NCBI RefSeq assembly: GCF_008693385.1
Contig: NZ_CP044065.1
Span: 2,356,001-2,420,000 of the forward strand
Length of the DNA stretch: 64,000 bases
From: Cupriavidus pauculus
Lineage (GTDB): Bacteria > Pseudomonadota > Gammaproteobacteria > Burkholderiales > Burkholderiaceae
Reading direction: 5' to 3'
How positions within the stretch are numbered: the first letter of the stretch is position 1; the number at the start of each line of letters is the position of its first letter. The notes beneath the pieces are model-generated. The model was given only the letters and a program-made list of their open reading frames with translations. It made no database searches and was not told the origin of the DNA. Positions 49,157 to 64,000 of this stretch are shown piece by piece. The translations under genes were made by a program, and so were the position numbers.

Positions 49157-50404
49157 ATGTTCGAACGCAGCCGCTTTACGATCGACCAGATCGACCCCGA
49201 GGTCTTCGCCGCGATCCAGAAGGAAAACCAGCGCCAGGAAGACCATATCGAGCTGATCGCTTCCGAGAACTACACCTCGCCGGCCGTGATGGCCGCGCAG
49301 GGTTCGCAACTGACCAACAAGTACGCCGAGGGCTATCCCGGCAAGCGCTACTACGGCGGCTGCGAATATGTCGACGTGGTCGAACAGCTGGCCATCGACC
49401 GCATCAAGCAGATCTACGGCGCCGAAGCCGCCAACGTGCAGCCGAACTCGGGCTCGCAGGCGAACCAGGGCGTGTTCTTCGCGATGCTGAAGCCGGGCGA
49501 CACCATCATGGGCATGAGCCTCGCCGAGGGCGGTCACCTGACGCACGGCATGGCGCTGAACATGAGCGGCAAGTGGTTCAACGTGGTCAGCTACGGCCTG
49601 AACGCGCAGGAAGACATCGACTACGACGCGATGGAAAAGCTCGCGCACGGGAAGAAGCCCAAGCTGATCATCGCGGGCGCCTCGGCCTTCGCGCTGCGTA
49701 TCGACTTCGAACGTATTTCGAAGGTTGCCAAGGCAGTCGGCGCTTACTTCATGGTGGACATGGCCCACTACGCGGGCCTGATCGCCGCCGGCGAGTACCC
49801 GAACCCGGTGCCGTTCGCGGACTTCGTCACCACGACGACCCACAAGAGCCTGCGCGGTCCGCGCGGCGGCGTCATCCTGATGAAGGCCGAGCACGAGAAG
49901 GCCATCAACTCGGCCATCTTCCCCGGCATCCAGGGCGGCCCGCTGATGCACGTGATCGCCGCCAAGGCGGTCGCGTTCAAGGAAGCGCTCACTCCCGAGT
50001 TCAAGGCTTACCAGCAACAGGTGGTGAAGAACGCCGCCGCGCTGGCCGAGACGCTGATCGCGCGCGGCCTGCGCATCGTGTCGGGCAAGACCGAGAGCCA
50101 CGTGATGCTCGTGGACCTGCGCGCCAAGCAGATCACCGGCAAGGAAGCCGAGAAGATCCTCGGCGACGCGCATATCACCGTGAACAAGAACGCGATTCCG
50201 AATGACCCGGAAAAGCCGTTCGTGACCTCGGGTGTGCGTCTGGGCTCGCCGGCCATGACCACGCGCGGCTTCAAGGAAGAGGAAGCCCGCCTGGTAGGCA
50301 ACCTGATCGCCGACGTGCTGGACAACCCGCACGACGAAGCGAACATCGCCAAGGTGCGCGAGCAGGTGGCGGCGCTGACCAAGCGCTTCCCGGTTTACGG
50401 TTAA
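49157..50404 (+). CDS. glyA: serine hydroxymethyltransferase
   Basis: A 415-aa PLP enzyme that interconverts serine and glycine and supplies one-carbon units as methylene-tetrahydrofolate. The start is standard ([19 protein letters not shown]), with [32 protein letters not shown]. The PLP-lysine region is [19 protein letters not shown], and the C-terminal half has [20 protein letters not shown]. The length is that of bacterial GlyA. Transcription likely begins far upstream, giving a long leader. nrdR follows after a 70-base gap with a hairpin. Confidence 0.98.
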
Positions 50405-50473: not shown

Positions 50474-50950
50474 ATGAAATGCCCTTTCTGCGGTCACTCC
50501 AATACCCAGGTTCTCGATAGCCGTGTCTCCGAGGACGGCGACACCGTGCGCCGCCGCCGGCGCTGCGAAACCTGCGATCGCCGCTTCACCACCTACGAAC
50601 GCATCGAACTGTTCTTCCCGGCCATCGTGAAGAAGAACGGCTCGCGCGTCGACTACGCGCGCTCCAAGCTGCAGGACTCCATGCGGCTGGCCCTGCGCAA
50701 GCGTCCCGTCTCGGCCGAGGCCATCGACCTCGCCATCACGCAGATCGAAGAGAAACTGCTCGCCCTCGGCGAGAAGGAAATCCCGAGCAGCCAGGTCGGC
50801 GAGCTCGTGATGCGCGAACTGCGCAAGCTCGACAAGATCGCCTATATCCGCTTCGCCTCCGTCTATCGCAGTTTCGAGGATGTGTCGGAATTCCGTGAAG
50901 TGATTGAAGAATTCTCAACGTCGTCCCGCAAGCCCGGCAGGAGTGGTTAA
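50474..50950 (+). CDS. nrdR: transcriptional repressor NrdR
   Basis: A 158-aa nucleotide-sensing repressor of ribonucleotide reductase genes. The N-terminal zinc ribbon has Cys3, Cys6, Cys31 and Cys34 (MKCPFCG and [15 protein letters not shown]), followed by an ATP-cone ([26 protein letters not shown]), which binds ATP/dATP. The C-terminal end is in the range of the family. The pairing glyA-nrdR is common in beta-proteobacteria. The first pilus cassette begins 110 bases downstream. Confidence 0.97.
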
Positions 50951-51060
50951 ATCGCGGACGCGACGGCGCCCCGCGCGCACGTCGTAGCAAACCATCGTCG
51001 CCCCCCGACTGATTCGTGACACCCGTGTTGCAGACACGGTGAACACGGGAGGGCACGCGC

Positions 51061-51654
51061 ATGACCCTGCGCCGCATGCGCATCGGTACCGGCTTCACCA
51101 TGATCGAGTCATTGGTGGCCGTGCTCGTTCTCGGCATCGGTGTGCTCGGCGTGGCGAACCTGCTCGCCAACTCGCTGCGGTTCTCGCAGCAATCCACTTA
51201 CGAACTCGTCGCCTCGTCGCTCGCCCATGACATGGCCGAGCGCATGCGCGCCAACGCGGCGCGCGTGCGCGATGGCGGCTACCGCGCCGTCGATACCGCC
51301 ACCTTTACCGGGCGTGGCACGGACCCGCTCTCCAACGGCTGCACCGGGCAGGACTGCGCCTCGCGCCGCGAGCAGCGCGATGTCGAGGAATGGAGCCGCC
51401 GCGTCACCGGCAGCCTGCCGGGCGGACGCGGCGTGGTGTGCGCCGATGCGGCGCCGCGCGTTCCCGTTGGTGGCGCGTGGGCATGCACGCCTCCTGCCTC
51501 CGGCGTGCGCTCGCCACTGGTGATCAAGCTCGGCTGGGTCCCCCGTTCGGGAGGCGGAAATGCCCACGCAACCGGGGCGAGCGGCGGCAAGGCCGGCGAC
51601 GGCGAGGCGGTGGTCCAGCTCGTCGTCGTGACGAGCACGCTGGCGGGCCCATGA
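51061..51654 (+). CDS. pilV: type IV pilus minor pilin PilV (cassette 1)
   Basis: A 197-aa type IV pilin-like protein. The prepilin cleavage site is Gly-Phe in RIGTGFTMIESLVAVLVLGIG, with Glu5 of the mature helix conserved. RQAQ- and LLANSLRFSQQSTYELVASSLAHDMAERMRANAARV are typical for PilV. PilV is a minor pilin that primes pilus assembly with PilW, PilX, PilE, FimT and PilY1. It is the first gene of cassette 1, and its stop overlaps the pilW start. Confidence 0.9.
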   Translation: MTLRRMRIGTGFTMIESLVAVLVLGIGVLGVANLLANSLRFSQQSTYELVASSLAHDMAERMRANAARVRDGGYRAVDTATFTGRGTDPLSNGCTGQDCASRREQRDVEEWSRRVTGSLPGGRGVVCADAAPRVPVGGAWACTPPASGVRSPLVIKLGWVPRSGGGNAHATGASGGKAGDGEAVVQLVVVTSTLAGP

Positions 51655-52562
51655 CACGGCATACCGCACGGCCCGCTTCGCATGCGCGATGCCACGGCTA
51701 TACGCTGGTGGAGCTGCTGACATCGCTCGTGATGGGCATGATCATCCTTGCCGCGGGCTTCGCGCTCTATACGATGAGCCGCGGCAACCAGAACGCCATC
51801 GCCAACAGCAGCACGCTCGACGAGCGTGGCTGGCTAGCACTCGATGCCGTGGCGAGCCAGCTGCGGCAGGCGGGGTACGTGCCGCCGGGCGCGAAGCGAG
51901 ACGCCGCCATGCCGATGCTGCTGGGGCTCGACGACTGCGACGCGCCTGCCGTGGCGCACGGCACGCTGCAATGCACGGGCGCGTCCGCGAAGACCGATGC
52001 GTTGCTGATCCGCTTCTACGGTGCGAGCCGGGCTGGCTCGCCAGCGGCCGACGACACGGTCATCGACTGTGCGGGCGAAGGTGTGCCGGCCCCCGACGGC
52101 GACAGCCCGCGGGGCGCCTCGCTCTTCTTCGTGCGCCACGCCGCCGACGGCACCGCAAGCCTGATCTGCCGGCATGGCGCCGGTGCGGGCGCCGCCGACG
52201 TCGAACTGATACGCGGCGTCGAGCGCATGGAGTTGCTCTATGGCATATCGACGGCCGGTGACGGCATGCCGGACAAGGTCGTGCCTGCACGGGTCATGAC
52301 AGCCGACGACTGGCGCAACGTGGCGACGGTCACGGTCTCGCTGCTGCTGCGCGGCGACCATCGCCGCCGTGGCACCACCTCCGGCACCACGTCCACCACC
52401 ACGTCCACCACCACGCTCGCGATGTTCGGCGCCGCCGACGATCCCGACTATCGCGTCGAGACCGGCAAGACGCCCGATATCGTCCGCCGCGTGTTCACCA
52501 GCACCGTGCAGTTGCGAAATCAACTGGCCTGCCCCACGAGCGGAGATCCATCGTGCGGCTGA
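51651..52562 (+). CDS. pilW: type IV pilus minor pilin PilW (cassette 1)
   Basis: A 303-aa PilW-like minor pilin. The leader peptide ends at Gly in CHG, then YTLVELLTSLVMGMIILAAGF with Glu5 present. The following GYVPP and QLRQAGY stretch is a recurrent PilW feature. A low-complexity GTTSGTTSTTTSTTT segment (four 12-bp units, 52371-52418) lies near the C-terminus. It begins inside the pilV stop (ATGA) and overlaps pilX by 10 bases. Confidence 0.88.
   Translation: MTRHTARPASHARCHGYTLVELLTSLVMGMIILAAGFALYTMSRGNQNAIANSSTLDERGWLALDAVASQLRQAGYVPPGAKRDAAMPMLLGLDDCDAPAVAHGTLQCTGASAKTDALLIRFYGASRAGSPAADDTVIDCAGEGVPAPDGDSPRGASLFFVRHAADGTASLICRHGAGAGAADVELIRGVERMELLYGISTAGDGMPDKVVPARVMTADDWRNVATVTVSLLLRGDHRRRGTTSGTTSTTTSTTTLAMFGAADDPDYRVETGKTPDIVRRVFTSTVQLRNQLACPTSGDPSCG
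52371..52418 (+). repeat. 12-bp tandem repeat inside pilW (cassette 1)
   Basis: Four related 12-bp units (52371-52382, 52383-52394, 52395-52406, 52407-52418) encode GTTS GTTS TTTS TTTL. It is a possible site of in-frame length change in a surface-exposed part of a minor pilin. Confidence 0.85.
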
Positions 52563-53167
52563 CGCGATGGGTGCCGTCCATGCGCGGGGACAGCGGCATG
52601 GCCCTCGTCACCACGCTGACCATGCTTGTCGTGGTGCTGCTGCTCGCCATCACGGGCGCGCGCGTGGCGCTCGATGGCAAACGCAATGCCCGCCACATGC
52701 GGGACATGGACATCGCCTTCCAGGCGGCCGAGGCCGCGTTGCGCGACGCGGAACTCGACATCGAGGCATCGCCGGACGCACGCAGCCGCTCGTCGCTGTT
52801 TTCCACGCGGTCGTCGGAGGGGTTTATCGAGGGATGCAATACCGGCGCGGCCGGCGCGCAGCCTTATCTCGGCCTCTGCCTGCCCAACGCCGCGGACGGG
52901 GACATATGGAACGTTGTCGACTGGGACGCCACGACCACGCCCCGCACGGTGGCGTTCGGCACCTTCACGGGCCGGCGTTTCCAGACCGGCACGGGCGCGA
53001 TGCCTTCCCGCCCGCCCCGCTATCTCATCGAACTCGTGGTCGATCAGTCCATCGGCGCGCAAGCCGATGGACTGCGCTACCTCTATCGCATCACGGCACT
53101 TGGTTTCGGGCCTCATCCGGACACACGCGCCATGGTGCAGTCGGTCTATCGCAAATCCAATCGCTGA
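52553..53167 (+). CDS. pilX: type IV pilus minor pilin PilX (cassette 1)
   Basis: A 204-aa PilX-type minor pilin starting at a GTG (52553) with GGAG upstream. The hydrophobic helix begins after Gly in DSGMALVTTLTMLVVVLLL; the residue at mature position 5 is not Glu, a feature shared by tip-type minor pilins such as GspK. NARHMRDMDIAFQAAEAALRDAE is the helix shared with other PilX proteins, and the C-terminus ends YRITALGFG plus a short tail. It sits directly before pilY1, with two bases between the stop and the next start. Confidence 0.85.
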   Translation: MRLTRWVPSMRGDSGMALVTTLTMLVVVLLLAITGARVALDGKRNARHMRDMDIAFQAAEAALRDAELDIEASPDARSRSSLFSTRSSEGFIEGCNTGAAGAQPYLGLCLPNAADGDIWNVVDWDATTTPRTVAFGTFTGRRFQTGTGAMPSRPPRYLIELVVDQSIGAQADGLRYLYRITALGFGPHPDTRAMVQSVYRKSNR

Positions 53168-53169
53168 AC

Positions 53170-56100
53170 ATGTGCTTCGATCCCATCGTACGGACGATAC
53201 GACGCGCGCGCGCCATGCTGCTGGCCGCATCGCTCACCGCGCCCCTGACGTCCGCGCTCGCGGCATCCACACAACCCACTCCCACGATCGACATCGCAAC
53301 GGCGCCGCTGTCGCTGTCGCTCGAGAGTGCGTATTCGAACGTGATGCTCACGCTATCGGTCGAGTTCCCGACCGTCGGGGCGGCATATCGCGGGCCCTAC
53401 CGGAAAACCGAGACGTACCTGGGCTACTTCAACCCCAACCGCTGCTACAGCTACGACGAGGGGGCTGGTTACTTTGTGGGCAAGGGCAACACGGACGCGG
53501 CATACGAATGCGTCGTCGCGACGGAGGGCGAGTTCAGCGGCAACTTCATGAACTGGGCCACCGCGTCCGCGATGGACGTGTTTCGGATGGCCATGACCGG
53601 TGGGGATCGCGTCATCGACACGCCCAGCGAAACGGTCCTGCAGCGGGCCCTGTTGCCGTCGAACTTCTTCGCGTCGCACTGGACCTTCCCGCTGAAGGGA
53701 CTCGATGGAAGCGGAGAGAACAGCGAGCCGTCGAAAGTAACGCCTTTCGCGCACGGCAATCTGTATATCGCATCCTGCGGCAATCATGTCTTCTTTTCGC
53801 CGACTTACGATCCCAGTGCGGACTGTTACTGGCCTGGTGAATACAGTGACACGGCCACGGAGCGGCGCGCGTTCCGCGTGCAGGTGAAGGTCTGCGACGG
53901 CGGCGAAGCGACCTCCCGAGGCGACCTCTGCCATCGTTATCAAGGCAGCAACTACAAGCCGATCGGAGAGATGCAGCGCAACGCCGGCAAGGCGCGCTTT
54001 GCCGCGTTCGGCTATCTGAACGACAGTGACTGGAACCGGTATGGCGGCGTGCTTCGCGCACCGATGAGATACGTTGGCCCAACCGCCACCGACGACAAGT
54101 TCCAGCCCACCGGCAACCCCGCGCCCGAATGGGACAAGGATGGTGTGCTGCGAGCCAATCCGCTGGGCGACAAGACGTACGGCCAGAGTGGCGTGATCAA
54201 TTACCTGAACAAGTTCGGCCGGACGCAGCACGCGAGCATGGGCGCCCCTGGCACTAACCCTTCGGGCAGCTACAAGCAATACGATCCGATCGGCGAACTG
54301 TATTACGAGAGCCTCCGCTACCTCCACAGGCATCCGGACGGCCCCACGCCGGAGGCGTTCGCCGACGGGTGGCAGAACTTTACCGACAGCTTTCCCGCCT
54401 ACCGCGACTGGAAGGCGCTGGACGACCCGTTGCTCGGCAACTGTCAGCGCAACTACGTCATTCTCATCGGCGACATCAACACCAACTTCGACAACTACGT
54501 TCCCGGCAACACGAAACCCGAGGGCGTCACCGGGGATGCGCCTCGCCCGGTCGATCCCTACTCGGGCCTCGACGTGATGGCCGAGACCGACAAGGTGGGA
54601 AGACTCGAGACGAACACGCCCGCCTCGACCGGCAATGCGAAGCCACTGCCGGCCGACTTCCTGAGCCTCGGCGCGAAGTTCCTGCACGGCTCGTCACGCC
54701 GGTCCTACTACGTCGCGGGTCTGGCCTACTGGGCGCATACCTCCGCGTTCCATCCCCAGCGAAAGGAGGCGCGCGTGACCACCTACGCCATCGACGTGAA
54801 CGAAGGCGGCGACGGCACCATCCACGACTGGCACAGACACTCGCAGATCTATCTCGCCGCGAAATACGGCGGCTTCCGTAACGAGCTCGCGGAGGGCGGC
54901 AATGCCGATGGGAATCCCTTCCAGGCGCTCGGCGCGGATGGCGCGGTCGCGGCCAGCGACAGGGAATGGGAAGCCGCGCCGCCGGGATCGAACCTGCCCT
55001 ACAACTGGTTCCTGGCCAGCCAGCCGCGCAAGATGATCGATGCGATCAAGCAGATCTTTGCGCAGATCTCGAGCGGCGTGGCGGGGACCGGCGGCATGGC
55101 GCTCAGCACCCACAGCATTCGCCGTGGCGGCCCGCCACCGCTGGCGTTCGTCCCGGGCTACGACGCGCAGTGGAATGGCACGCTCACGGCATACGACGTT
55201 CGCGTGGACCCCGGCAAGGGCATCGCGCTGGCCTCCGCGCAGTGGGAAGCCGGTGAGCGCCTCGGCACGCGCGCCCACACCTCGCGCGCCATATTCTCGC
55301 TCGACAGCGCCGGCCGCGGCATGCCCTTCACGTGGGCAGCGCTCGACGCGGCACAGAAGACATCGCTGGACATCGACCCTGACACCGGCACCGCCGACGG
55401 CCGCGGCGAGCAGCGCGCGGAATATGTCCGTGGCGACCGCGCCCAGGAGACCGCGACTCCGCGCAACGCGCGCCCCTTCCGCGGCCGTCGCAACGTTCTT
55501 GGCGACGCGGTGAATGCCGGCCCGGTTCATGTCGGCGGCCCGTCCGGCAATGCCGGCGCGGGCGGCGCGCGCTACGAAGCCTTCCGTACCCGCTATGCGG
55601 CGCGCACGCCAATGGTCTACCTTGCCGCGAACGACGGCATGCTGCATGGCTTTGCCGCGCGTACGGGGCACGAAGTGTTCGCGTACGTGCCGCGCAGCGT
55701 GGTGCCCGCCCTCAACCAGCTGACCTCTCCAGCCTATGCACACCGCAACTTCGTGGATGCGACACCCGTGACGGCAGATGCAGAAATCGGCGGTACCTGG
55801 CGCACGGTGCTGGCGGGCGGCCTCGGCGGCGGCGGCCAGGGCCTGTATGCGCTCGATATCACCGATCCCGAAGGCGGCCAGCGCGGGCGCGCGTTCGGCG
55901 CGGCCGACGTGCTCTGGGAGTTCACCGATCGCGACGATGCCGACATGGGCAACGTCATGAGCGCGCCGATCATCGCGAAGCTGCGCACCGGCACCGATAA
56001 CCGCGGCGCCCCCATCGAGGCATGGTTCGTCATCGCCGGTAACGGCCTGAATGCCAACCTGGACGACGGCCACGCCAATCCGGCCGCGTCGGGCGTGCTG

Positions 56101-57102
56101 TTTCTGCTTCGCCTCGACAAGCCCGCCGGGCAACGGTGGCAGCTCGATCGGAACTACTACAAGATCGTCACGCCGCGCGGCATGATCCCGGAAGCGCTTC
56201 AACATCCGAACGGACTGAGCGCGCCGACCGGTGTCGCCAACGCGGCAGGCGTGACCCAGACCGCGTATGCCGGCGATCTGCTCGGGCAGCTTTGGAAGTT
56301 CGATCTCACACGCGGCGCATCGACGTGGCATGGGGGCCGCGATGGCGCCATCCCCGCTTATGGGGAACCCAGGGGCACGCCATTCTTCAGCGCCACGTCC
56401 ACCGCGGGCGAGCCCCGCCCCATCACGATGGCGCCAAGCGTGGCCCATGCGGGCGGCGGCCATATGGTGCTGTTCGGCACCGGCAAGTATTACGAACTGG
56501 CGGACGCACGACAGGACGCATCCGACTCCAACGCGTTCTATGGCGTGTTCGACGATGGTCAGCGCCGGGTGGAGCACCGCGGCAGGCTCAACACGCTGAT
56601 TGCCATGCCGGCGCATAACGGAGCCGCGGTCGCATGGCTCGGCAAGGGAACCCCGCCCGGCCACGTGTCGCCCGCCAGGCCGGGGTGGGTGTTCGAATTC
56701 ATCGAGCCAGCCGAACGCCAGGTCGGACCCGCCACGCTGCAAGGCGGCTTCGTCCACTTCAATTCCATGACCACCAGCACCAGGTCCTGCAGTTCGCCCG
56801 GCAGCAGCCGCAACTACGCGCTCAATGCATTGACGGGGCTGCCCAGCGATACGGTGTCGGGCACCCTGTCGGCGGAGGGGATTCTGGGGCCGCCGGTGAC
56901 CGTATCGAGCGAGCCCGTCGTGGACGCGCGCAACAACACCGGACAGATCCGCCAGGCCGAAACGCAGCAGGTGCTGAGTCTCGGCACGACCGGCCAGGCC
57001 AGACCCACGCCCCCCACACGCGTCGCGTCGATCGCCGGCCGCCTGAGCTGGCGCGAGATTCGCCACCCCGACCCGCGCGCGCAGCCGGCCGCGAAGCCAT
57101 GA
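53170..57102 (+). CDS. pilY1: PilY1-type pilus adhesin/assembly factor (cassette 1)
   Basis: A 1310-aa protein. A signal peptide (about 1-35) is followed by a large N-terminal part with YLGYFNPNRCYSYDEGAGY, and by the C-terminal beta-propeller of PilC/PilY1 proteins (from about 810). ARTPMVYLAANDGMLHGF, LYALDITDPEGG, NVMSAPIIAKLRTG and the Ca-binding-like loop NGLNANLDDGHAN are in the right order. PilY1 controls extension and retraction, adhesion and surface sensing, and needs minor pilins to be incorporated. It starts at 53170, right after pilX, and its stop overlaps the start of pilE (ATGA). Confidence 0.93.
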   Translation: MCFDPIVRTIRRARAMLLAASLTAPLTSALAASTQPTPTIDIATAPLSLSLESAYSNVMLTLSVEFPTVGAAYRGPYRKTETYLGYFNPNRCYSYDEGAGYFVGKGNTDAAYECVVATEGEFSGNFMNWATASAMDVFRMAMTGGDRVIDTPSETVLQRALLPSNFFASHWTFPLKGLDGSGENSEPSKVTPFAHGNLYIASCGNHVFFSPTYDPSADCYWPGEYSDTATERRAFRVQVKVCDGGEATSRGDLCHRYQGSNYKPIGEMQRNAGKARFAAFGYLNDSDWNRYGGVLRAPMRYVGPTATDDKFQPTGNPAPEWDKDGVLRANPLGDKTYGQSGVINYLNKFGRTQHASMGAPGTNPSGSYKQYDPIGELYYESLRYLHRHPDGPTPEAFADGWQNFTDSFPAYRDWKALDDPLLGNCQRNYVILIGDINTNFDNYVPGNTKPEGVTGDAPRPVDPYSGLDVMAETDKVGRLETNTPASTGNAKPLPADFLSLGAKFLHGSSRRSYYVAGLAYWAHTSAFHPQRKEARVTTYAIDVNEGGDGTIHDWHRHSQIYLAAKYGGFRNELAEGGNADGNPFQALGADGAVAASDREWEAAPPGSNLPYNWFLASQPRKMIDAIKQIFAQISSGVAGTGGMALSTHSIRRGGPPPLAFVPGYDAQWNGTLTAYDVRVDPGKGIALASAQWEAGERLGTRAHTSRAIFSLDSAGRGMPFTWAALDAAQKTSLDIDPDTGTADGRGEQRAEYVRGDRAQETATPRNARPFRGRRNVLGDAVNAGPVHVGGPSGNAGAGGARYEAFRTRYAARTPMVYLAANDGMLHGFAARTGHEVFAYVPRSVVPALNQLTSPAYAHRNFVDATPVTADAEIGGTWRTVLAGGLGGGGQGLYALDITDPEGGQRGRAFGAADVLWEFTDRDDADMGNVMSAPIIAKLRTGTDNRGAPIEAWFVIAGNGLNANLDDGHANPAASGVLFLLRLDKPAGQRWQLDRNYYKIVTPRGMIPEALQHPNGLSAPTGVANAAGVTQTAYAGDLLGQLWKFDLTRGASTWHGGRDGAIPAYGEPRGTPFFSATSTAGEPRPITMAPSVAHAGGGHMVLFGTGKYYELADARQDASDSNAFYGVFDDGQRRVEHRGRLNTLIAMPAHNGAAVAWLGKGTPPGHVSPARPGWVFEFIEPAERQVGPATLQGGFVHFNSMTTSTRSCSSPGSSRNYALNALTGLPSDTVSGTLSAEGILGPPVTVSSEPVVDARNNTGQIRQAETQQVLSLGTTGQARPTPPTRVASIAGRLSWREIRHPDPRAQPAAKP

Positions 57103-57551
57103 GGAGGCCGCTCGTGTCGCAAACCGAAACGGGTCCGGGAACGGGAACCGGGTTCACGCTGATCGAACTGGTGACGGTGGTTGCCATCATCGGAATACTG
57201 AGCACGATTGCGTATCCGCAATACATCGAGCACACGCGCCGCGCGAGCCGCGCCGATGCAAGCGCCGCGCTGCTCTCCGCCATGCAGCAGTTCGAACAGC
57301 ACTATTCGGACGCCAATACCTATTACAAGCCGAACACGAACGTGCTCTGGGACGGCTTTCAGAAGAAGTCGGACGGCGGAAAATTCGTACTGTCCGCACA
57401 AGGCTGCGGCGCGTTCAATGGCCACTGCGTCGAGCTTCGCGCCACGGCGCAAGGCACGGGCGATCCATGCGGCGCGCTCGTGCTTCGCAGTACCGGCGAG
57501 CGCCTGGTGTGGACGCAGAATCAGTATCTGAACAAGCGGGAGTGCTGGTGA
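57099..57551 (+). CDS. pilE: type IV pilus minor pilin PilE (cassette 1)
   Basis: A 150-aa type IV pilin with an unusually short C-terminal domain. The leader ends at Gly in GTGTG and the mature helix is FTLIELVTVVAIIGILSTIAYPQYIEHTRRA, which has Glu5. Cysteines in GCGAFNGHC and GDPCG could form the D-region disulfide loops. PilE-type minor pilins complete the priming complex. It overlaps pilY1 and the next gene by four bases each, so the cluster is translationally coupled. Confidence 0.9.
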   Translation: MRRPLVSQTETGPGTGTGFTLIELVTVVAIIGILSTIAYPQYIEHTRRASRADASAALLSAMQQFEQHYSDANTYYKPNTNVLWDGFQKKSDGGKFVLSAQGCGAFNGHCVELRATAQGTGDPCGALVLRSTGERLVWTQNQYLNKRECW

Positions 57552-58069
57552 CGCGGGCCATAGACCGGCAGCGGGCCTTCACGCTGATCGAACTCGTCAC
57601 CACACTGGCCATTGCCGCCATCGCGATGGCCGCGGTGGTCCCCAGCGCGGCGACTTTCGTCCGCGAGCATCGCGTTGCCGCGACCACCGAGCGTCTGGCC
57701 TCCGCATTGACGATGGCGCGGACCACGGCGATCGCGCGGCGCACCTACGTCAGCGTCGCCCCGCTCGGCACGGGGTGGCAGGAGGGCTGGCGCGTGTTCG
57801 TCGAGCACGACCCGCCTCGCGGCCAGTTCAACGGACGCGATGCCGTGCTCCTCCTGGAGGACCGCCTGTCCTCCGACCTCGCCGCCCTGACGCCGGGCGC
57901 GAATGCCGTCACGTTCTCGCCGGTGGGCCGTGTGGTTGCGGCAGGCCCGCCGGGCGGACGCCAGCATATTGGCTTTCGCATCGAAAGCGCGAGCCGGCTG
58001 GTGGAAATCGGCGCGATGGGTCAGGTTCGCGTCTGCATTCCGGCAAGCCAGCCCACCGCCTGCAAATAG
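57548..58069 (+). CDS. fimT: GspH/FimT family pseudopilin (cassette 1)
   Basis: A 173-aa GspH/FimT-like minor pilin. The start is GTG at 57548, overlapping the pilE stop, with GGGAG five bases upstream. The N-terminal helix FTLIELVTTLAIAAIAMAAVVPSAATF is preceded by Ala (QRA) where other pilins have Gly, an unusual residue for prepilin peptidase. ERLASALTMARTTAIARRTYVSV is typical of the family. It is the last gene of cassette 1, after which there is a 257-base gap. Confidence 0.85.
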   Translation: MTRAIDRQRAFTLIELVTTLAIAAIAMAAVVPSAATFVREHRVAATTERLASALTMARTTAIARRTYVSVAPLGTGWQEGWRVFVEHDPPRGQFNGRDAVLLLEDRLSSDLAALTPGANAVTFSPVGRVVAAGPPGGRQHIGFRIESASRLVEIGAMGQVRVCIPASQPTACK

Positions 58070-58326
58070 CCGCGCCGCCGGCTTGTGACAGGACTGTCTG
58101 AATTTCGCGACGAAACCCGACGCGACCGGGTGAGATTCGGCCATTACCCCACGAAAGGGGTAGCCTTTTGCCATAAAAAGCCGTCTAATCTGCCCTGACC
58201 TTCCCCATGGGTTAGGGAAGGGCGTATTACGCGAGCGCGCATCGCGGCTTCTCACACATCGCAAACATAACCGCGCGCAGCACAACAAAAAGCAAAAAGC
58301 AGCACCTTTTTTTGACGGGAGTCATG
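58070..58326 (+). promoter_or_regulatory. gap between cassettes with hairpins and a possible sigma-54 promoter
   Basis: No gene is visible. TACCCC/GGGGTA (58145-58150 with 58157-58162) and CCTTCCC/GGGAAGG (58199-58205 with 58215-58221) form hairpins. GGGTAGCCTTTTGC at 58158-58171 resembles a -24/-12 promoter: GG and GC are 10 bases apart and TTGC is kept. This would give cassette 2 its own control, as is known for sigma-54 pilin genes. The match is imperfect. Confidence 0.3.
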
Positions 58327-58953
58327 ATGGGTCAGTCTGTCTGCCTTTGGGCAGTGGGCTTGCTGGCGTCTGCGCAGCCCACGGCCGGGGACGATCTCAC
58401 GCGCCACGCATGCGGGCGCGGCGCCAGCCATGGCGCGCCCTCCACGATCGGCGGCTTCACGCTGATCGAGATGCTCGTCGCCGTCACCATTCTCGGCGTG
58501 GTCGCCATGGCCGCGTTACCGAACCTCAGCAGCTTTACCCATAGCAGCAAGATCCGCTCGGAAGCCTCGAGCTTCGCCAGCGACATGGAAGTCGCGCGCA
58601 GCGAAGCCGCGCGCCGCAACGCCACCGTCACGATCTGCCCGAGCCAGGACGGGAATACCTGCTCCGACGACTGGTCGCAGCCTCGGGTGATCTTCTTCGA
58701 TACCAATAACGATGGCGCCTATGGCAATGGCGACGACCTGATCCGCCGCGGCAACACGCCGCCCGCGCGCATCGTCATCACGGCCGCCGATCTTGCCGCG
58801 CCGACCTATATCCGCTTCCGCTCGTTCGGACCCTCGACCTCGCCGACCGCGAACTGGCAGATCTGTGAAAGCGGATCGGCGCTTCCGGGCCAGACGATCT
58901 CGATGACGGGCAGCGGCAAGCCCTATATCCAACTGCAGACCCCCTGCTCCTGA
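58327..58953 (+). CDS. fimT: GspH/FimT family pseudopilin (cassette 2)
   Basis: A 208-aa GspH/FimT-like minor pilin, first gene of cassette 2. The pilin helix FTLIEMLVAVTILGVVAMAALP follows Gly in TIGG. The leader preceding it is over 40 residues and partly hydrophobic (CLWAVGLLASA), much longer than the usual 5-25. The ATG at 58327 has GGGAG at a suitable distance, so the extended leader may be real; if not, an internal start is needed. Compared with the fimT of cassette 1, the helix differs and the C-terminal domain is cysteine-containing (TICPSQDGNTC). Confidence 0.82.
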   Translation: MGQSVCLWAVGLLASAQPTAGDDLTRHACGRGASHGAPSTIGGFTLIEMLVAVTILGVVAMAALPNLSSFTHSSKIRSEASSFASDMEVARSEAARRNATVTICPSQDGNTCSDDWSQPRVIFFDTNNDGAYGNGDDLIRRGNTPPARIVITAADLAAPTYIRFRSFGPSTSPTANWQICESGSALPGQTISMTGSGKPYIQLQTPCS

Positions 58954-58957
58954 CGCC

Positions 58958-59542
58958 ATGTCGAGACACCCTTCGCATGCCCAACGCTCCGGCAGGGTCC
59001 CGCGTATCCGCGCGCGGCGGCCCGCTCCGCGCAACGCGGCCGGCTTCTCGCTGATCGAGGCGCTCGTCACGATCGTCATCCTGTCGTTCGGCGTACTGGC
59101 ACTGGCGATGCTGCAGGTGCAGACGCTGGTGGACACGCGTACGTCGGCGGCACGGAACATCGCGGCGGAGATGGCGTACAACCTCGCCGACGAGATTCGC
59201 AGCAACAACGCCGCGTACGACCTCGGAGCGTTCAAGACCCTGCCGACGGATCCGCCGGCTCAGGTCGCGGCCTGCTACGGCGCCGGCTGCACGCCCGCGC
59301 AGATGGCCACCACCAGCTATGCGACCTGGCGCAACGATCTCGGCAGCGCGCTGCCGCAGGGCAAGGGCTACGTATGCGTGGATGGCTCGCCCGACGATGG
59401 CGAAAGCCCGGCGGACAATCAATGCGACAACGCGCCCGGCGCACCGTACGTGATCAAGATCTGGTGGAACGAAGACCAGGGCAGCGCCCTGCGCTTCGTG
59501 ACGTCGTTCGTCCCCTTCCCCGTCGCCGCCGGCACCCCATGA
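58958..59542 (+). CDS. pilV: type IV pilus minor pilin PilV (cassette 2)
   Basis: A 194-aa PilV-type minor pilin. The leader is basic and ends AAG, then FSLIEALVTIVILSFGVLALAMLQ with Glu5. The ARNIAAEMAYNLADEIRSNNAAY stretch is the PilV counterpart of the equivalent in cassette 1. It begins four bases after the fimT stop and overlaps pilW by four bases. Overall it is clearly homologous to the first pilV but not close. Confidence 0.92.
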   Translation: MSRHPSHAQRSGRVPRIRARRPAPRNAAGFSLIEALVTIVILSFGVLALAMLQVQTLVDTRTSAARNIAAEMAYNLADEIRSNNAAYDLGAFKTLPTDPPAQVAACYGAGCTPAQMATTSYATWRNDLGSALPQGKGYVCVDGSPDDGESPADNQCDNAPGAPYVIKIWWNEDQGSALRFVTSFVPFPVAAGTP

Positions 59543-60378
59543 GACAGACGCCCCGCCTCCTCCCGCGCCGCGATGGCGGCTTCACGCTTGTCGAGATCAT
59601 GGTCGGGCTGGTCATCAGCCTGCTGCTGTTGCTCGCCGCGAGTTCGATGTTCATCGCCCAGCAGCGCACGAACGCCACGCAAGGCGACATCTCCGAGATC
59701 CACGAGAACGCACGCGCCATCTCGCAATTGATCCAGCGCGAAGCCCGCCAGGCCGGCTATAGCGATTTCATTTTCGCCAACAACGCGTTTCCCGGCGACC
59801 TGAGCATCTCCGCGACCAACGACGATGGCGTCAACCTCTCGGACTCGCTCACGCTGAGCTACTTCGGCGCCTCCCAGCCCGGCGCGGATCCGTTCGCCAC
59901 GCCAAGCACGCCGGCCGCCGCGGCGCCGGACGGCACCGTCATCGACTGCACCGGCAAGGAGGTCAATGCCAACGTGCTGACGACGGAAGTGTTCTCGGTG
60001 GTCCAGGCCCCCGACGGCACGCCCTGGCTGCAATGCGCGGTCAACGGCGTCAGCACGCCGCTGTTCCCGAACGTCGAATCGATGCAGCTCCTGATGGGCG
60101 AGGACACCAATGGCGACAAGACCGTCGACCGCTATGTGCGCCCCGGCGTCGCGAACATGAGCCAGGTACGCGCGCTGCGCATCTCGTTCGTCCTGCGCGG
60201 CAAAAGCACGACGAACGTGGCGCCGACCGCCGCGGCCATCAACCATTTCGGTCCCGGCTACGCGGGCGGAGACGTCGCGCCCGCCGGCGATGCCGGCAGC
60301 ATCTTCAACCAGCCCGCCGACGGCAGGCTGCGCAAGCATTACGCGTTCTACGTGGCCATCCGCAACCGGCTGAACTAG
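59539..60378 (+). CDS. pilW: type IV pilus minor pilin PilW (cassette 2)
   Basis: A 279-aa PilW-type minor pilin. The leader ends in DGG and is followed by FTLVEIMVGLVISLLLLLAASSMF with Glu5. The AISQLIQREARQAGYSDFIFANNAFPGDL region is typical of PilW, and the C-terminus is longer and more standard than the cassette 1 version, without the Thr/Ser repeat. It starts within the pilV stop and is two bases from pilX. Confidence 0.93.
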   Translation: MRQTPRLLPRRDGGFTLVEIMVGLVISLLLLLAASSMFIAQQRTNATQGDISEIHENARAISQLIQREARQAGYSDFIFANNAFPGDLSISATNDDGVNLSDSLTLSYFGASQPGADPFATPSTPAAAAPDGTVIDCTGKEVNANVLTTEVFSVVQAPDGTPWLQCAVNGVSTPLFPNVESMQLLMGEDTNGDKTVDRYVRPGVANMSQVRALRISFVLRGKSTTNVAPTAAAINHFGPGYAGGDVAPAGDAGSIFNQPADGRLRKHYAFYVAIRNRLN

Positions 60379-60380
60379 TC

Positions 60381-60980
60381 ATGAGCATTCGACCCCTGCG
60401 ATCCCTGCGATCGATCCGGCGCCGCCAGCGCGGCATTTCGCTGGTCATGGTGCTGTTGTTCCTCGTCATCCTGACGCTGGTCGGCGTTGCTGCGAGCATG
60501 TCGGGCCGCTCGGCGGAACTGATGTCGCGCAATGCGCGCGACGAGAACGTTGCGCTACAGGCGGCCGAGTCGGCCCTGCGCGATGCGCGCCAGGATATCG
60601 GCGTCGCGCGCGCGCTCCCGGCCGGCAACGCCGTCGGCGCCTCCCCGACCTGCGACTGGCCCTCATACAAGGGCTACTGCACACCCGCCGGCCTGGGCGA
60701 GCAACCGCGCTGGGAACAGTACATCGAAGACCCGCTGCGATCGGTGGAACTTGGCGAAATCACCGCCCTGAAGACCGAGCAGAAGATGCCGACCCTCAGC
60801 GCCGGCAAGGGGGGCGGCGTGTCGCGGCAGCCGCGATACATCATCGAGCGCCTGCCCGACCTGAACAACGGCGGCGGTACGTGCCCCGAATGCATCTCCT
60901 ACGTCTATCGCATCACCGCTGTCGGGTATGGCACGAATACCACTACCCGCGTGATGGTGCAGGAAGTCGTTCGCTTCTGA
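60381..60980 (+). CDS. pilX: type IV pilus minor pilin PilX (cassette 2)
   Basis: A 199-aa PilX-type minor pilin. A basic leader ends RQRG, and the helix is ISLVMVLLFLVILTLVGVAASM, again without Glu at position 5. NARDENVALQAAESALRDARQD is the family motif following the helix and closely parallels NARHMRDMDIAFQAAEAALRDAE in cassette 1. The C-terminal region ends YVYRITAVGYGTNTTTRV. pilY1 begins 50 bases downstream. Confidence 0.9.
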   Translation: MSIRPLRSLRSIRRRQRGISLVMVLLFLVILTLVGVAASMSGRSAELMSRNARDENVALQAAESALRDARQDIGVARALPAGNAVGASPTCDWPSYKGYCTPAGLGEQPRWEQYIEDPLRSVELGEITALKTEQKMPTLSAGKGGGVSRQPRYIIERLPDLNNGGGTCPECISYVYRITAVGYGTNTTTRVMVQEVVRF

Positions 60981-61029
60981 TCATGTCACTGAGCCGTTCT
61001 TGCGCAACCTCCCACCTGTCGGGCGCACT

Positions 61030-64000
61030 ATGACCCAGCTAACCTCCTTCCGCGTCATGAGCCGCATCCAGCGCGTGCTCCTGGCCACGTCCTGCCTGCT
61101 AGCGATTGCGTCCGCGTCGGCCGCGCAGCTGAACCTGTCCACGCGACCCCTGTATGCGGGCGGCGCCGTGCCACCGATGGTCATGATCGACCTGAGCAAG
61201 GACCATTCGCTGCACCAGAAGGCCTACAACGACTACACGGACCTCGACGGCGGCGGAATCGACTCGACGTACAAGAACAGCATCGAGTACGCCGGGTACT
61301 TCGACTCGTACAAGTGCTACGACTACGACGCGAGCGGCGTCAAGGGCTTCGTGCCCAAGGCGTTGACGACCACGAAGTACTGCGATGGCAAGACCTGGAG
61401 CGGCAACTTCCTGAACTGGGCGTCGATGAGCCGGATCGACGAAGTGCGCAAGATCCTGTACGGCGGCACGCGCTCCACCGACACGGCCACGCAGACCATT
61501 CTCGAGCGCGCGTTCCTGCCGATGGATGCCCATGCGTGGGCCAAGTACTACTCGGGCACGGACATCGCGCAGCTCACGCCATTCAGCGTGGAACTGCCGG
61601 GCGACGTCAAGGGTGTGACCTCGACCACGAGCATGACGCTGTCGGCGGCGGTCCGCACCGTCTCGGTCAGCAGCACGAGCGACATGCAGGTGGGCGACCA
61701 GATCCAGCTCAAGCCGACCAGCGGCAATGCCGGCGCGTCGATGACGGGCTGGATCTCCAGCGTCGGAACGGGGCAGATCACCCTTGCCATCTACGGCGAG
61801 AGCGTGATCAACCCGACCAACACGAACACGACCTACAACAACTGGAACGTGCTCAACCTGACCCGCGGCGGGCTGACGTTATGCAACGTCACGCCGAAGG
61901 ACAGCAACAACCTCAACTCGCAGAGCAACACGCAGCCGCCGCAGATCCGCGTGGTGCGCGGCAACTATGCGACGTGGGGCGCCAGCGAGAAATGGCAATG
62001 CAACTGGTCTTCGGAGGCGTCGAACACGCAGAGCGGATTCCTGCCCAATATCGGCAGCACGGCGGTATCGGGATCGTCCAACGGTAACCGCGCCGCGGTG
62101 TCGGGCATCAATTCGTCCGCGGAGAATCCTTCGAAATCTGCGCGCGGCCTGGGCACGGGTCAGGACACGGGCACGTTCAACGCACGCGTGCAGGTGTGCG
62201 TAGCGAGCCTGATCGGCACCGAGAACTGCAAGCAGTACGGCACGAGCTACAAGCCTTACGGCCTGCTGCAGAAGTACGGCGAAACGGGGCAGATGCTGTT
62301 CGGCCTGATGACGGGCACGTACGACAAGAACATTTCGGGCGGCGTGCTGCGCCGCAACGTGACGAACTTCGCGAGCGAGATCAACCAGGCCGACGGCACG
62401 TTCGTCTTCACGGGCACCAACGGCGTCAAGGGCATCGTCTGGAACATCGACAAGCTGCGCCCGTATGGCTACAGCTACAGCGATGGCGGCTACACGAGCG
62501 CGGATTCCTGTAATTACCAGCAGACGTCGATCGTGCCGAGCGGCGGCAGCAACGCGCAGAACAAGCCCGCCAGCGAGGGGAATTGCTCGACATGGGGCAA
62601 TCCGATGTCGGAGATCTACATCGAGACCCTGCGCTACTTCGGCGGGCTGACGCAGAACGCCGATTTCCAGCCCAGGAGCAACGGCAAGGACAACGCGCTG
62701 GGCCTCACGCAGGCCACCTGGGCCAACCCGATGGACCTGCCGGCCAACAACGCCAGCAAGGCGCCCTACTGCTCGCCGATGAACGCGCTGGTGTTCAACG
62801 CGAGCGTGACGTCCTACGACAACGACCAGGTCGGCATCCTCAACGGTCTGGCCGGCGCGCCCAATGTCAGCACCTACACCGACAAGGTCGGCACCGGCGA
62901 AGGCGTCGATGGCAAGTCGTGGTTCGCGGGCGGCGTGAATGGCGGCGTGATCGACAACCTCTGCTCGGCGAAGAAGGTCGGCAAGTTCAGCGACGTGCTC
63001 GGTATCTGCCCAGAAGGCCCGTCGCAGCTCGGCACGTTCCAGATTGCCGGCGCGGCGCTGTTCGCGCATATGAACCGCATTCGCGATGGCAGCAAGCTCG
63101 GCGTCCCCACGAGCGATACGACGTCGCTGAAGGTCTCGACCTACGCGGTGCAGCTGGCAACCACGACGCCGAAGATCAACGTGAACGTGAACGGCAAGAC
63201 CGTGACGATCATGCCGGCCTATCAGCTGCATCCGTCCGGCGTGGTGGCCAGCAGCGGCACGCTGGTGGACTTCAAGGTCATTTCGCAGACGGCGACCGAC
63301 GGCAAGTTCTACGTGAACTGGGAAGACTCCACCGCGGGCGGCGACTACGACCAGGACGTGTGGGGTATTCTGAGCTACAGCGTCAGCGGCAACAACATCA
63401 CGGTCACCACGCGCGTGGTGTCGGCCTCTACAGCAAACGGTCAGGGCTTCGGCTACGCCATCTCCGGCACGGACAAGGACGGCCCGCACTTCCACTCGGG
63501 CATTCTGGGCTTCAACTACTCCGACCCGGTACCGGTGACCGTGACGCCGAATACCAAGGTCGACAAGACCGGCGGCTGCAGCAACTGCGTACTCGGCGAT
63601 GCCGCGACGAGCGTGACCTACTCCGCCAGCGGCAACGCGGCGGCGGAGTTCCTGGATCCGCTGCTGTATGCGGCGAAATGGGGCGGCTTCAAGGACATCA
63701 ACGGCTCGGGGGCCCCGGACCAGGCGTCGGAGTGGGATGTGCGCCTGCAGGACGGCACGCCCGGAAACGATGGCATTCCCGACAACTACTTCTATGCGAC
63801 GAACCCGGGCGCGCTCAGTGCGGCGCTGGAGCGGGCATTCCTGTCGATCCTGAAGGCTTCGTCGGCCGCGGCGGCCGCCACCAACTCGACGACACTGTCC
63901 ACGGACACCACGATCTTCCAGGCCCGCTTCAACGGTTCGGACTGGTCGGGCCAGTTGCTGGCGTACGGTCTCGGCCCCGACGGCTCGGTCAAGACGCCCG
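61030..64000 (+). CDS. pilY1: PilY1-type pilus protein (cassette 2), 3' end outside window
   Basis: A 990-codon open frame without a stop in the window. The signal peptide VLLATSCLLAIASASAAQ is followed by an N-terminal domain with PPMVMIDLSKD and NDYTDLDGGGID, which resemble a metal-ion site. YAGYFDSYKCYDYD and GNFLNWASMSRIDEVRKILYGG show homology to the PilY1 of cassette 1 (YLGYFNPNRCYSYDE and GNFMNWATASAMDVFRMAM). Later, ALERAFLSILKASSAAAAATNSTTL and FQARFNGSDWSGQLLAYGL mark the join with the propeller domain, which continues beyond the end. The ATG at 61030 is used; another at 61057 would shorten the N-terminus. Confidence 0.92.
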   Translation, partial: MTQLTSFRVMSRIQRVLLATSCLLAIASASAAQLNLSTRPLYAGGAVPPMVMIDLSKDHSLHQKAYNDYTDLDGGGIDSTYKNSIEYAGYFDSYKCYDYDASGVKGFVPKALTTTKYCDGKTWSGNFLNWASMSRIDEVRKILYGGTRSTDTATQTILERAFLPMDAHAWAKYYSGTDIAQLTPFSVELPGDVKGVTSTTSMTLSAAVRTVSVSSTSDMQVGDQIQLKPTSGNAGASMTGWISSVGTGQITLAIYGESVINPTNTNTTYNNWNVLNLTRGGLTLCNVTPKDSNNLNSQSNTQPPQIRVVRGNYATWGASEKWQCNWSSEASNTQSGFLPNIGSTAVSGSSNGNRAAVSGINSSAENPSKSARGLGTGQDTGTFNARVQVCVASLIGTENCKQYGTSYKPYGLLQKYGETGQMLFGLMTGTYDKNISGGVLRRNVTNFASEINQADGTFVFTGTNGVKGIVWNIDKLRPYGYSYSDGGYTSADSCNYQQTSIVPSGGSNAQNKPASEGNCSTWGNPMSEIYIETLRYFGGLTQNADFQPRSNGKDNALGLTQATWANPMDLPANNASKAPYCSPMNALVFNASVTSYDNDQVGILNGLAGAPNVSTYTDKVGTGEGVDGKSWFAGGVNGGVIDNLCSAKKVGKFSDVLGICPEGPSQLGTFQIAGAALFAHMNRIRDGSKLGVPTSDTTSLKVSTYAVQLATTTPKINVNVNGKTVTIMPAYQLHPSGVVASSGTLVDFKVISQTATDGKFYVNWEDSTAGGDYDQDVWGILSYSVSGNNITVTTRVVSASTANGQGFGYAISGTDKDGPHFHSGILGFNYSDPVPVTVTPNTKVDKTGGCSNCVLGDAATSVTYSASGNAAAEFLDPLLYAAKWGGFKDINGSGAPDQASEWDVRLQDGTPGNDGIPDNYFYATNPGALSAALERAFLSILKASSAAAAATNSTTLSTDTTIFQARFNGSDWSGQLLAYGLGPDGSVKTP

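Follow-up and report, generated by a model that had tools for sequence, protein, structure and literature searches.

A 64,000-nucleotide stretch of the Cupriavidus pauculus genome (contig NZ_CP044065.1, positions 2,356,001 to 2,420,000; hereinafter the window) carries at its right end two adjacent cassettes of minor-pilin and PilY1 genes, which belong to a longer pilin site between nrdR and ribD. Comparison of this site across the genus shows that it holds a short pilin set together with none, one or two full-length sets of five types, swapped as whole blocks. We consider it probable that the nrdR–ribD region is an exchange locus for the tip complex of the type IVa pilus (T4aP), with a lone type-1 set as its ancestral state, stacking of further sets through recombination anchored in nrdR, and two alternative tips as the outcome.

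Cassette 1 (51061-58069) has the order pilV-pilW-pilX-pilY1-pilE-fimT, and cassette 2 (58324-66265), which extends past the window end, the order fimT-pilV-pilW-pilX-pilY1-pilE, both on the plus strand. Family matches and open reading frames (ORFs) agree here with a first-pass annotation made from the letters of the window, which had pointed beyond position 64000 as the place to look for pilE and the end of cassette 2; pilY1-2 does run to 65778 and is followed by pilE2 (65810-66265). fimT closes cassette 1 and opens cassette 2, so that fimT1 and fimT2 are direct neighbors. The count of two sets given in that annotation has to be raised: a third, short set (pilW, pilX, a PilY of about 690 aa, pilE and fimT) follows at about 66843-71473 (extended window coordinates) before ribD, making three sets in tandem and 17 pilin-type genes in a row within a site of 20.5 kb, and a fourth set lies on contig C3. 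From what is known of T4aP, each cassette would supply a priming/tip complex of its own (FimT/U-PilV-PilW-PilX-PilY1 together with PilE) to a shared machine, likely giving the cell two alternative tips; as the first-pass annotation supposed, these may differ in adhesion or in when they are used.

Whole pilin sets at a conserved nrdR–ribD site

The genus comparison covers 60 Cupriavidus genomes, with the window's genome (7.06 Mb in three contigs) as G000, C. pampae LMG 32289 as G005 and Cupriavidus sp. 2SB as G009. nrdR and ribD are each found in 59 of the 60, on the same contig in 57, and the nrdR–ribD stretch is readable in 57. Across these 57 sites there is a single address, glyA-nrdR-[ ]-ribD, with lengths ranging between 552 bp and 20.7 kb. 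Sets were called with models built from the window genome's own genes; types 4 and 5, which have no model of their own, are minus-strand matches to the type-2 model that were separated by the PilY1 tree. On these calls, a full-length set is lacking from 18 sites; 36 have a single one and three have two. The single sets are of types 1, 2 and 3 in nine sites each, of type 4 in eight and of type 5 in one, with types 3, 4 and 5 inverted at the site. The stacked sets read type 1 then type 2 in the window's genome and C. pampae, and type 2 then type 1 in G009.

The sets occur whole, the six type genes being found together in 12 of 12 type-1 and 12 of 12 type-2 sites (with interrupted frames in G024 and G053). 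The broken frames of type-2 pilY1 in these two genomes (G053:C1:2614094-2618781 and G024:C9:2261408-2266230) reflect either decay or sequencing error. In a quick PilY1 tree of 77 rows, with long-branch warnings, the five types form separate deep clades. Close relatives accordingly carry alternative whole sets at one conserved address, as in allelic exchange of the pilin-island type. The first-pass premise that most genomes need one set does not fit these distributions, given that 18 of the 57 sites are without a full-length set and three have two; genome-wide, 52 of the 60 genomes have at least one match to PF05567, the family matched by both PilY1 proteins of the window, five have three and eight have none. 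Nor are both cassettes standard in all relatives.

Mapped on an rpoB tree of 57 species (G012, G031 and G048 gave no rpoB; G049, with type 5, is in this tree and outside the 57-site table), the state of the site changes 23 times, or 21 times when 24 branches with less than 95% support are collapsed, as against 30-39 times in 200 shuffles of the labels. The changes are fewer than in the shuffles, yet many, and thus point to inheritance plus frequent change. Together with the site states, these counts rule out simple vertical inheritance of both cassettes. Site-to-site alignments between genomes were searched on one strand, with four pairs repeated on both. Between G023 (type 2) and G038 (type 5, inverted), 93.5% identity extends over 4589 bp, from slightly left of the short set as far as ribD, and further left just two 51-bp stretches align (both strands); G047, the next relative of the two, carries type 1. 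Cassette-less sites still contain remnants: G028 has 295 bp from the end of a type-1 set (95.9% identical to G029), G037 has 64 bp of type 3 and G032 has 437 bp of type 4. The type-1 PilY1 of G029 groups with that of Burkholderiaceae bacterium PBA (support 100/98), though the rpoB of G029 lies inside Cupriavidus.

The operon that Burkholderiales ancestrally carried at nrdR–ribD was most likely type 1, with type 2 a newcomer there, because nrdR and ribD stand beside type 1 in other Burkholderiales and, in six genomes of other families, the relatives of type 2 sit in other loci. Relatives of type 1 were taken from the best 80 of 214 profile matches, 10 of which are Cupriavidus. Among the 70 other loci, nrdR is found at 29, ribD at 33 and both at 25, as counts limited by contig ends and 10-kb flanks, and fimT comes after pilY1 in 61. 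A lone type-1 set beside nrdR and ribD occurs in Noviherbaspirillum, Herminiimonas, Janthinobacterium, Xenophilus, Variovorax and others. Named relatives of type 2 outside Cupriavidus, taken from the best 120 of 1634 matches (Actimicrobium, Oxalicibacterium, Lautropia, Niveibacterium and others), are 43-51% identical, the exception being a record assigned to Ralstonia sp. 25mfcol4.1 (65%). In six genomes of five other families, these relatives lie in pilin loci with no match to nrdR, ribD or glyA in the 9-19 kb read; fimT was seen upstream in three of these loci and not in two, and the sixth showed pilY1 only. At the chosen threshold, type-2 PilY1 is present in 12 of the 398 genomes of the family sample, all of them Cupriavidus. 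The corresponding proteins of cassettes 1 and 2 have best local identities of 24-37%, and the cassettes are therefore not a recent copy, as the first-pass annotation had also suggested; type 2 appears to be of another lineage, and the same identities rule out a recent tandem duplication.

The nrdR-tail scar and stacking

The 254-bp spacer between fimT1 and fimT2 holds an nrdR relic, namely the 3′ end of such a gene together with its stop codon (58083..58163, plus strand), followed by a conserved leader core, AAAGCCGTCTAATCTGCCC (58177..58195, plus strand). Aligned with the nrdR tail of a congener, the relic is identical in 57 of 81 columns, including uninterrupted matches of 18 and 19 bp; this best alignment among 32 nrdR tails scores 65, as compared to 33 at most for 300 letter shuffles. 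The same relic is present in C. pampae (score 65; shuffles at most 37) and in G027 (69; shuffles at most 33). In the latter, the scar stands directly after an intact nrdR at a site with cassette 2 only; because the scar is present and cassette 1 absent, G027 probably lost cassette 1 later. The leader core pattern occurs in 16 of the 57 sites, in 12 of them at position 14-20 after nrdR, all being single-cassette sites. A separate nrdR-tail scar marks the junction of the oppositely ordered stack in G009 and has that genome's own nrdR as its best match (score 85, with 30 the highest value among the shuffles). The two orders, each with an nrdR-tail scar, thus indicate that stacking took place at least twice.

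The intact nrdR of G000, G005 and G027 ends in REVIEEF..., and the species whose tails match the scar end in RDVLDEF...TPRKG; further endings exist in the genus. Since the former ending differs from that of many congeners, it suggests that the nrdR 3′ end of the G000/G005/G027 clade came with incoming DNA. We propose that cassette 2 would first have stood beside a TPRKG-type nrdR, that a fragment made up of another nrdR 3′ end and cassette 1 would have been inserted upstream of it by recombination anchored in nrdR, and that the old nrdR tail would have been left behind as a scar between the cassettes. Natural transformation with homology-anchored joining would yield such scars.

Gene content, constraint and alternative explanations

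The left border of the site is formed by nrdR (50474..50950, plus strand; Pfam Zn_ribbon_NrdR and ATP-cone), conserved across the genus, with glyA (49157-50404) upstream of it, and the right border by ribD, outside the window at C1:2427476-2428645. Cassette 1 (type 1) comprises, all on the plus strand, pilV1 (51061..51654; TIGR02523, 108 bits against a cut-off of 52), pilW1 (51651..52562; PF16074, E 1.8e-21), pilX1 (52553..53167; PF13681/PF14341), pilY1-1 (53170..57102; PF05567, E 2e-39), coding for 1310 aa with a C-terminal β-propeller, pilE1 (57099..57551; PF16732 and N_methyl), a minor pilin of the PilE/ComP type, and fimT1 (57548..58069; PF12019), a GspH/FimT protein of the 3′-end type. 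Cassette 2 (type 2), likewise on the plus strand, comprises the fimU-like fimT2 (58324..58953; PF12019) of the 5′-end type, pilV2 (58958..59542; TIGR02523, 94 bits), pilW2 (59539..60378; PF16074), pilX2 (60381..60980; PF13681/PF14341), pilY1-2 (from 61030; 1582 aa; PF05567, E 3e-53) and, outside the window, pilE2. The propellers of both PilY1 proteins are related to that of Pseudomonas aeruginosa PilY1 (3HX6; E 3e-52 for PilY1-1 and 2e-72 for PilY1-2). The low-complexity TTS repeat of PilW1 is real and short. The description of the genes as mostly overlapping is apt for cassette 1 (four of five junctions) and only partly so for cassette 2 (one of five): five of the ten within-cassette junctions overlap by 4-10 bp and two more have a 2-bp gap. 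A promoter consensus scan of the region found one promoter-like site against 2.2 expected. A terminator scan found 16 terminator-like sites against 8.1 expected, most of them on the minus strand or intragenic, and these were left unused. A sigma-54 pattern matched 13 times in the window, with 12.5 matches expected; the one at 51017, in the leader between nrdR and pilV1, has two mismatches and constitutes no evidence.

Both cassettes are apparently under purifying selection. All of their genes are open in the window's genome, and the ratio of nonsynonymous to synonymous rates (dN/dS) against C. pampae, cited from aligned coding parts, is 0.13-0.35 for 10 of 11 genes; the eleventh, pilE2, is doubtful at 0.47, as this value against G005 comes from 269 pooled codons and probably pools a second pilE. 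The value for pilV1 (0.18) is available only from stop-to-stop frames, a procedure by which values come out too high where an upstream frame overlaps the gene (pilE1, pilX2). Synonymous divergence (dS) from C. pampae ranges from 0.47 to 1.36 for the cassette genes, and is 0.14 for rpoB, 0.26 for glyA and 0.40 for ribD.

Several points weigh against the reading proposed above. The table of 57 sites leaves out G012, G048 and G049, whose sites are incomplete or spread over more than one contig, and two of the sites included contain unread bases, 309 next to nrdR in G005 and 17 in G019. The species tree is that of one gene, rpoB. It pairs G000 with G027 (support 94) and PilY1-2 pairs G000 with G005 (97, quick tree), so that the order of events in this trio rests mainly on the scar. 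Furthermore, cassette 1 evolves faster, the dS between the window's genome and C. pampae being 1.36 for pilY1-1 as compared to 0.72 for pilY1-2; on account of this divergence and of an altered FimT motif (see below), it could be on its way out. An explanation by redundancy and decay takes up this last point: one cassette would have taken over the function, with the other a silent passenger soon to be lost. We regard it as the foremost of the alternatives, if an unlikely one. It would accommodate the close relative G027, with cassette 2 only and the scar kept, where cassette 1 was probably lost, as well as the 18 sites without a full-length set, the faster divergence of cassette 1 and the loss of the first R of GRxR in fimT1. 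Yet both cassettes are open, the dN/dS values of 10 of the 11 genes are low between the very two species with the 1-then-2 order, and stacks exist in two lineages in opposite orders.

Two sequence motifs bear on what the tips might do. The PilY1-2 propeller carries an EF-hand-like Dx[DN]xDGxxD loop (DADGDGVVD), and the same loop, looked for in the propeller of PilY1-1, is absent there; PilY1 of tip 2 is predicted to bind calcium. With a looser pattern, the loop is found in 10 of 11 located type-2 proteins (15 ORF pieces in all) and in nine of nine of type 3, and in none of those of type 1 (0 of 11 located, 12 in all), type 4 (0 of 8), type 5 (0 of 1) or the short set (0 of 32 located, of 50 ORF pieces). 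In P. aeruginosa, Kingella and Neisseria, PilY1 is reported to lose its function when this loop motif is altered (PMC8833165; this and the other papers cited here are drawn on in part). The second motif is GRxRxC in FimT, counted strictly, with no K accepted for the first R. It is found in 11 of 12 type-1 proteins and at 56 of 57 sites in the short-set protein (including a truncated remnant in G055), and in none of the 30 proteins of types 2-5 (type 2 alone 0 of 12, FimT2 included). FimT1 of the window reads GQVRVC and is the single type-1 exception, having lost the first arginine, and the short-set FimT of the same genome reads GRIRIC. As related sequences have such motifs in common by descent, neither the calcium-loop counts nor the FimT counts can be treated as independent. 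Legionella-type FimT has GRxR as its conserved motif, with both arginines contributing to DNA binding (PMC8897410), and the motif is also noted for Xylella FimT3 (PMC9956873). The short-set FimT of the window's genome is the best candidate for a DNA receptor. We infer that the adhesive tips are exchangeable and that the short set would keep a role in DNA uptake.

The short set differs from the full-length ones in its PilY, which consists of the propeller only, the N-terminal half being absent; a profile of eight short PilYs from congeners and relatives matches 3HX6 (E 1e-34) at profile positions 114-441 of 607. Its fimT is kept in all 57 sites (in G055 as the truncated remnant), with the other genes missing from a few: pilW and pilX from five sites each, pilY from nine and pilE from one. 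A protein scan for the short PilY over word-sharing candidates recovered 76 proteins, and all those with an organism name are from Cupriavidus. None of the 70 non-Cupriavidus type-1 loci among the best 80 of 214 matches has a best match to the short PilY of the window's genome. At the same site, type 1 is accompanied in Ralstonia sp. UNC404CL21Col and Burkholderiaceae bacterium PBA by a divergent second set with a PilY of less than 750 aa (best match PilY1-1, 30-32%), a pairing that suggests an origin of the short set before that of Cupriavidus. A bolder scheme, which we put forward as speculative and improbable, would see the site as a self-renewing tip locus: the near-invariant short set would keep the DNA-receptor FimT for DNA uptake, the adhesin set would be renewed by nrdR recombination, and the two-tip stack, with separate leaders and different calcium needs, would be an intermediate between an old and a new adhesin.

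As for the assembly machine that the tips would serve, searches for PilQ, PilM, PilT/PilU-like and PilB/GspE-like ATPases recovered a PilQ over the cut-off, a PilM homologue, two ATPases that we take to be PilT/PilU-like and further PilB/GspE-like ATPases. An apparent TAG inside the PilT-type match proved to be the codon before the start, and both neighboring ATPase frames are open. A second PilQ and PilM lie on contig C3, which invites the view that one cassette serves the T4aP machine of chromosome 1 and the other a second machine. This we consider very improbable: the contig C3 machine adjoins the fourth tip set (fimT-V-W-X-PilY1-E), which is followed by pilA-type pilins, and as it has a tip set of its own, cassettes 1 and 2 are left to the first machine. 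The preferred reading, an exchange locus feeding one shared machine, is likewise favored over an ancient tandem duplication with differential loss and no transfer, starting from a Cupriavidus ancestor with all types, which we deem the least probable of all: losses are real, as the deletion scars of types 1, 3 and 4 attest, but types 1-5 are separate deep PilY1 clades (with the caveats of the quick tree), the stacks in both orders with nrdR-tail scars record insertions, the type-2 relatives in the six genomes of five other families lie in loci without a match to nrdR, ribD or glyA in the segments read, and the type 1 of G029 is misplaced with respect to rpoB.

Some further observations concern pilin sets outside the two cassettes. 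The contig C3 locus (L006 4962-16966) amounts to a second T4aP group with PilQ, PilM, the frames between them, pilA-type pilins and its own tip set, whose PilY1 shows a weak, below-cut-off match to the L-type lectin family PF18483. The type-3 sets that lie inverted at nrdR–ribD in nine other species are relatives of this contig C3 set. A further, weakly matching PilY1-like set is found elsewhere on the chromosome (e.g., G007:C1:431001-451000 and G003:C2:380001-400000), with frames mostly of about 1050-1350 aa; such matches occur in 37 of the 60 genomes, counted together on the assumption that they belong to one family, and in none of the contigs of the window's genome. Six genomes of 4.7-5.8 Mb (G016, G020, G031, G033, G040 and G042), and likewise G002 and G056, have no PF05567 match anywhere. 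The six keep pilW, pilX, pilE and FimT at nrdR–ribD, with GRxRxC in five (G016 reads GAIRIC), and may build a pilus without PilY1.

Comparison with known systems

The genus offers a natural series of sites with no full-length set, one of five types, or two types in both orders, swapped as a unit. Such a series lets one test which parts of the T4aP tip must co-evolve and whether one machine uses two tips, as well as whether the calcium dependence of PilY1 and the DNA binding of FimT are separable modules. The insertion scars, in turn, provide a readable mechanism for the entry of new adhesins at a conserved operon site.

A close parallel is the pilin island of P. aeruginosa, where two minor-pilin cluster types, those of PAO1 and PA14, have minor pilins 61-75% similar (PMC4628258, PMC11841053, PMC5979040). 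As in Cupriavidus, whole minor-pilin sets exist there as alternative divergent cluster types among strains; however, Cupriavidus has five far more divergent types, in varied order and orientation, along with sites lacking a full-length set and stacks with scars. Myxococcus xanthus resembles Cupriavidus in having several divergent sets per genome, namely three minor pilin/PilY1 clusters with less than 36% identity, different PilY1 N-termini, differential expression and cluster-specific roles, and some of its cluster classes were probably acquired horizontally; the portion of that paper drawn on here describes no shared exchange site or stacking scar (PMC13190605). Xylella fastidiosa has two operon-like groups of pilEVWX/fimT/pilY1 paralogues with mostly opposing mutant phenotypes, and its FimT3 is a DNA receptor (PMC9956873). 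The Xylella sets lie in two different genome regions and their functions are known from knock-outs, whereas those in Cupriavidus are deduced by comparison. The type-1 and short-set FimT proteins share the C-terminal GRxR of Legionella FimT (PMC8897410), but in Cupriavidus the motif continues as x-C (GRxRxC), and DNA binding is here predicted from sequence; the text of the Legionella paper makes no mention of Cupriavidus, Ralstonia or Burkholderiales. Multiple PilY1 proteins in a Burkholderiales genome are also on record for Variovorax paradoxus EPS, with three pilY1 homologues, of which Varpa_5900 has no evident calcium site, like type 1, and alters swarming and biofilm formation when disrupted by insertions (PMC3283707).

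A full-text literature search, with subscription journals mostly outside its coverage, found no paper on the nrdR–ribD pilin site. Several divergent tip sets per genome are already known from Myxococcus and Xylella, and alternative cluster types from P. aeruginosa. What is new, as far as our searches go, is a genus-wide exchange among five types that includes sites without a full-length set, stacks in both orders and nrdR-tail scars.

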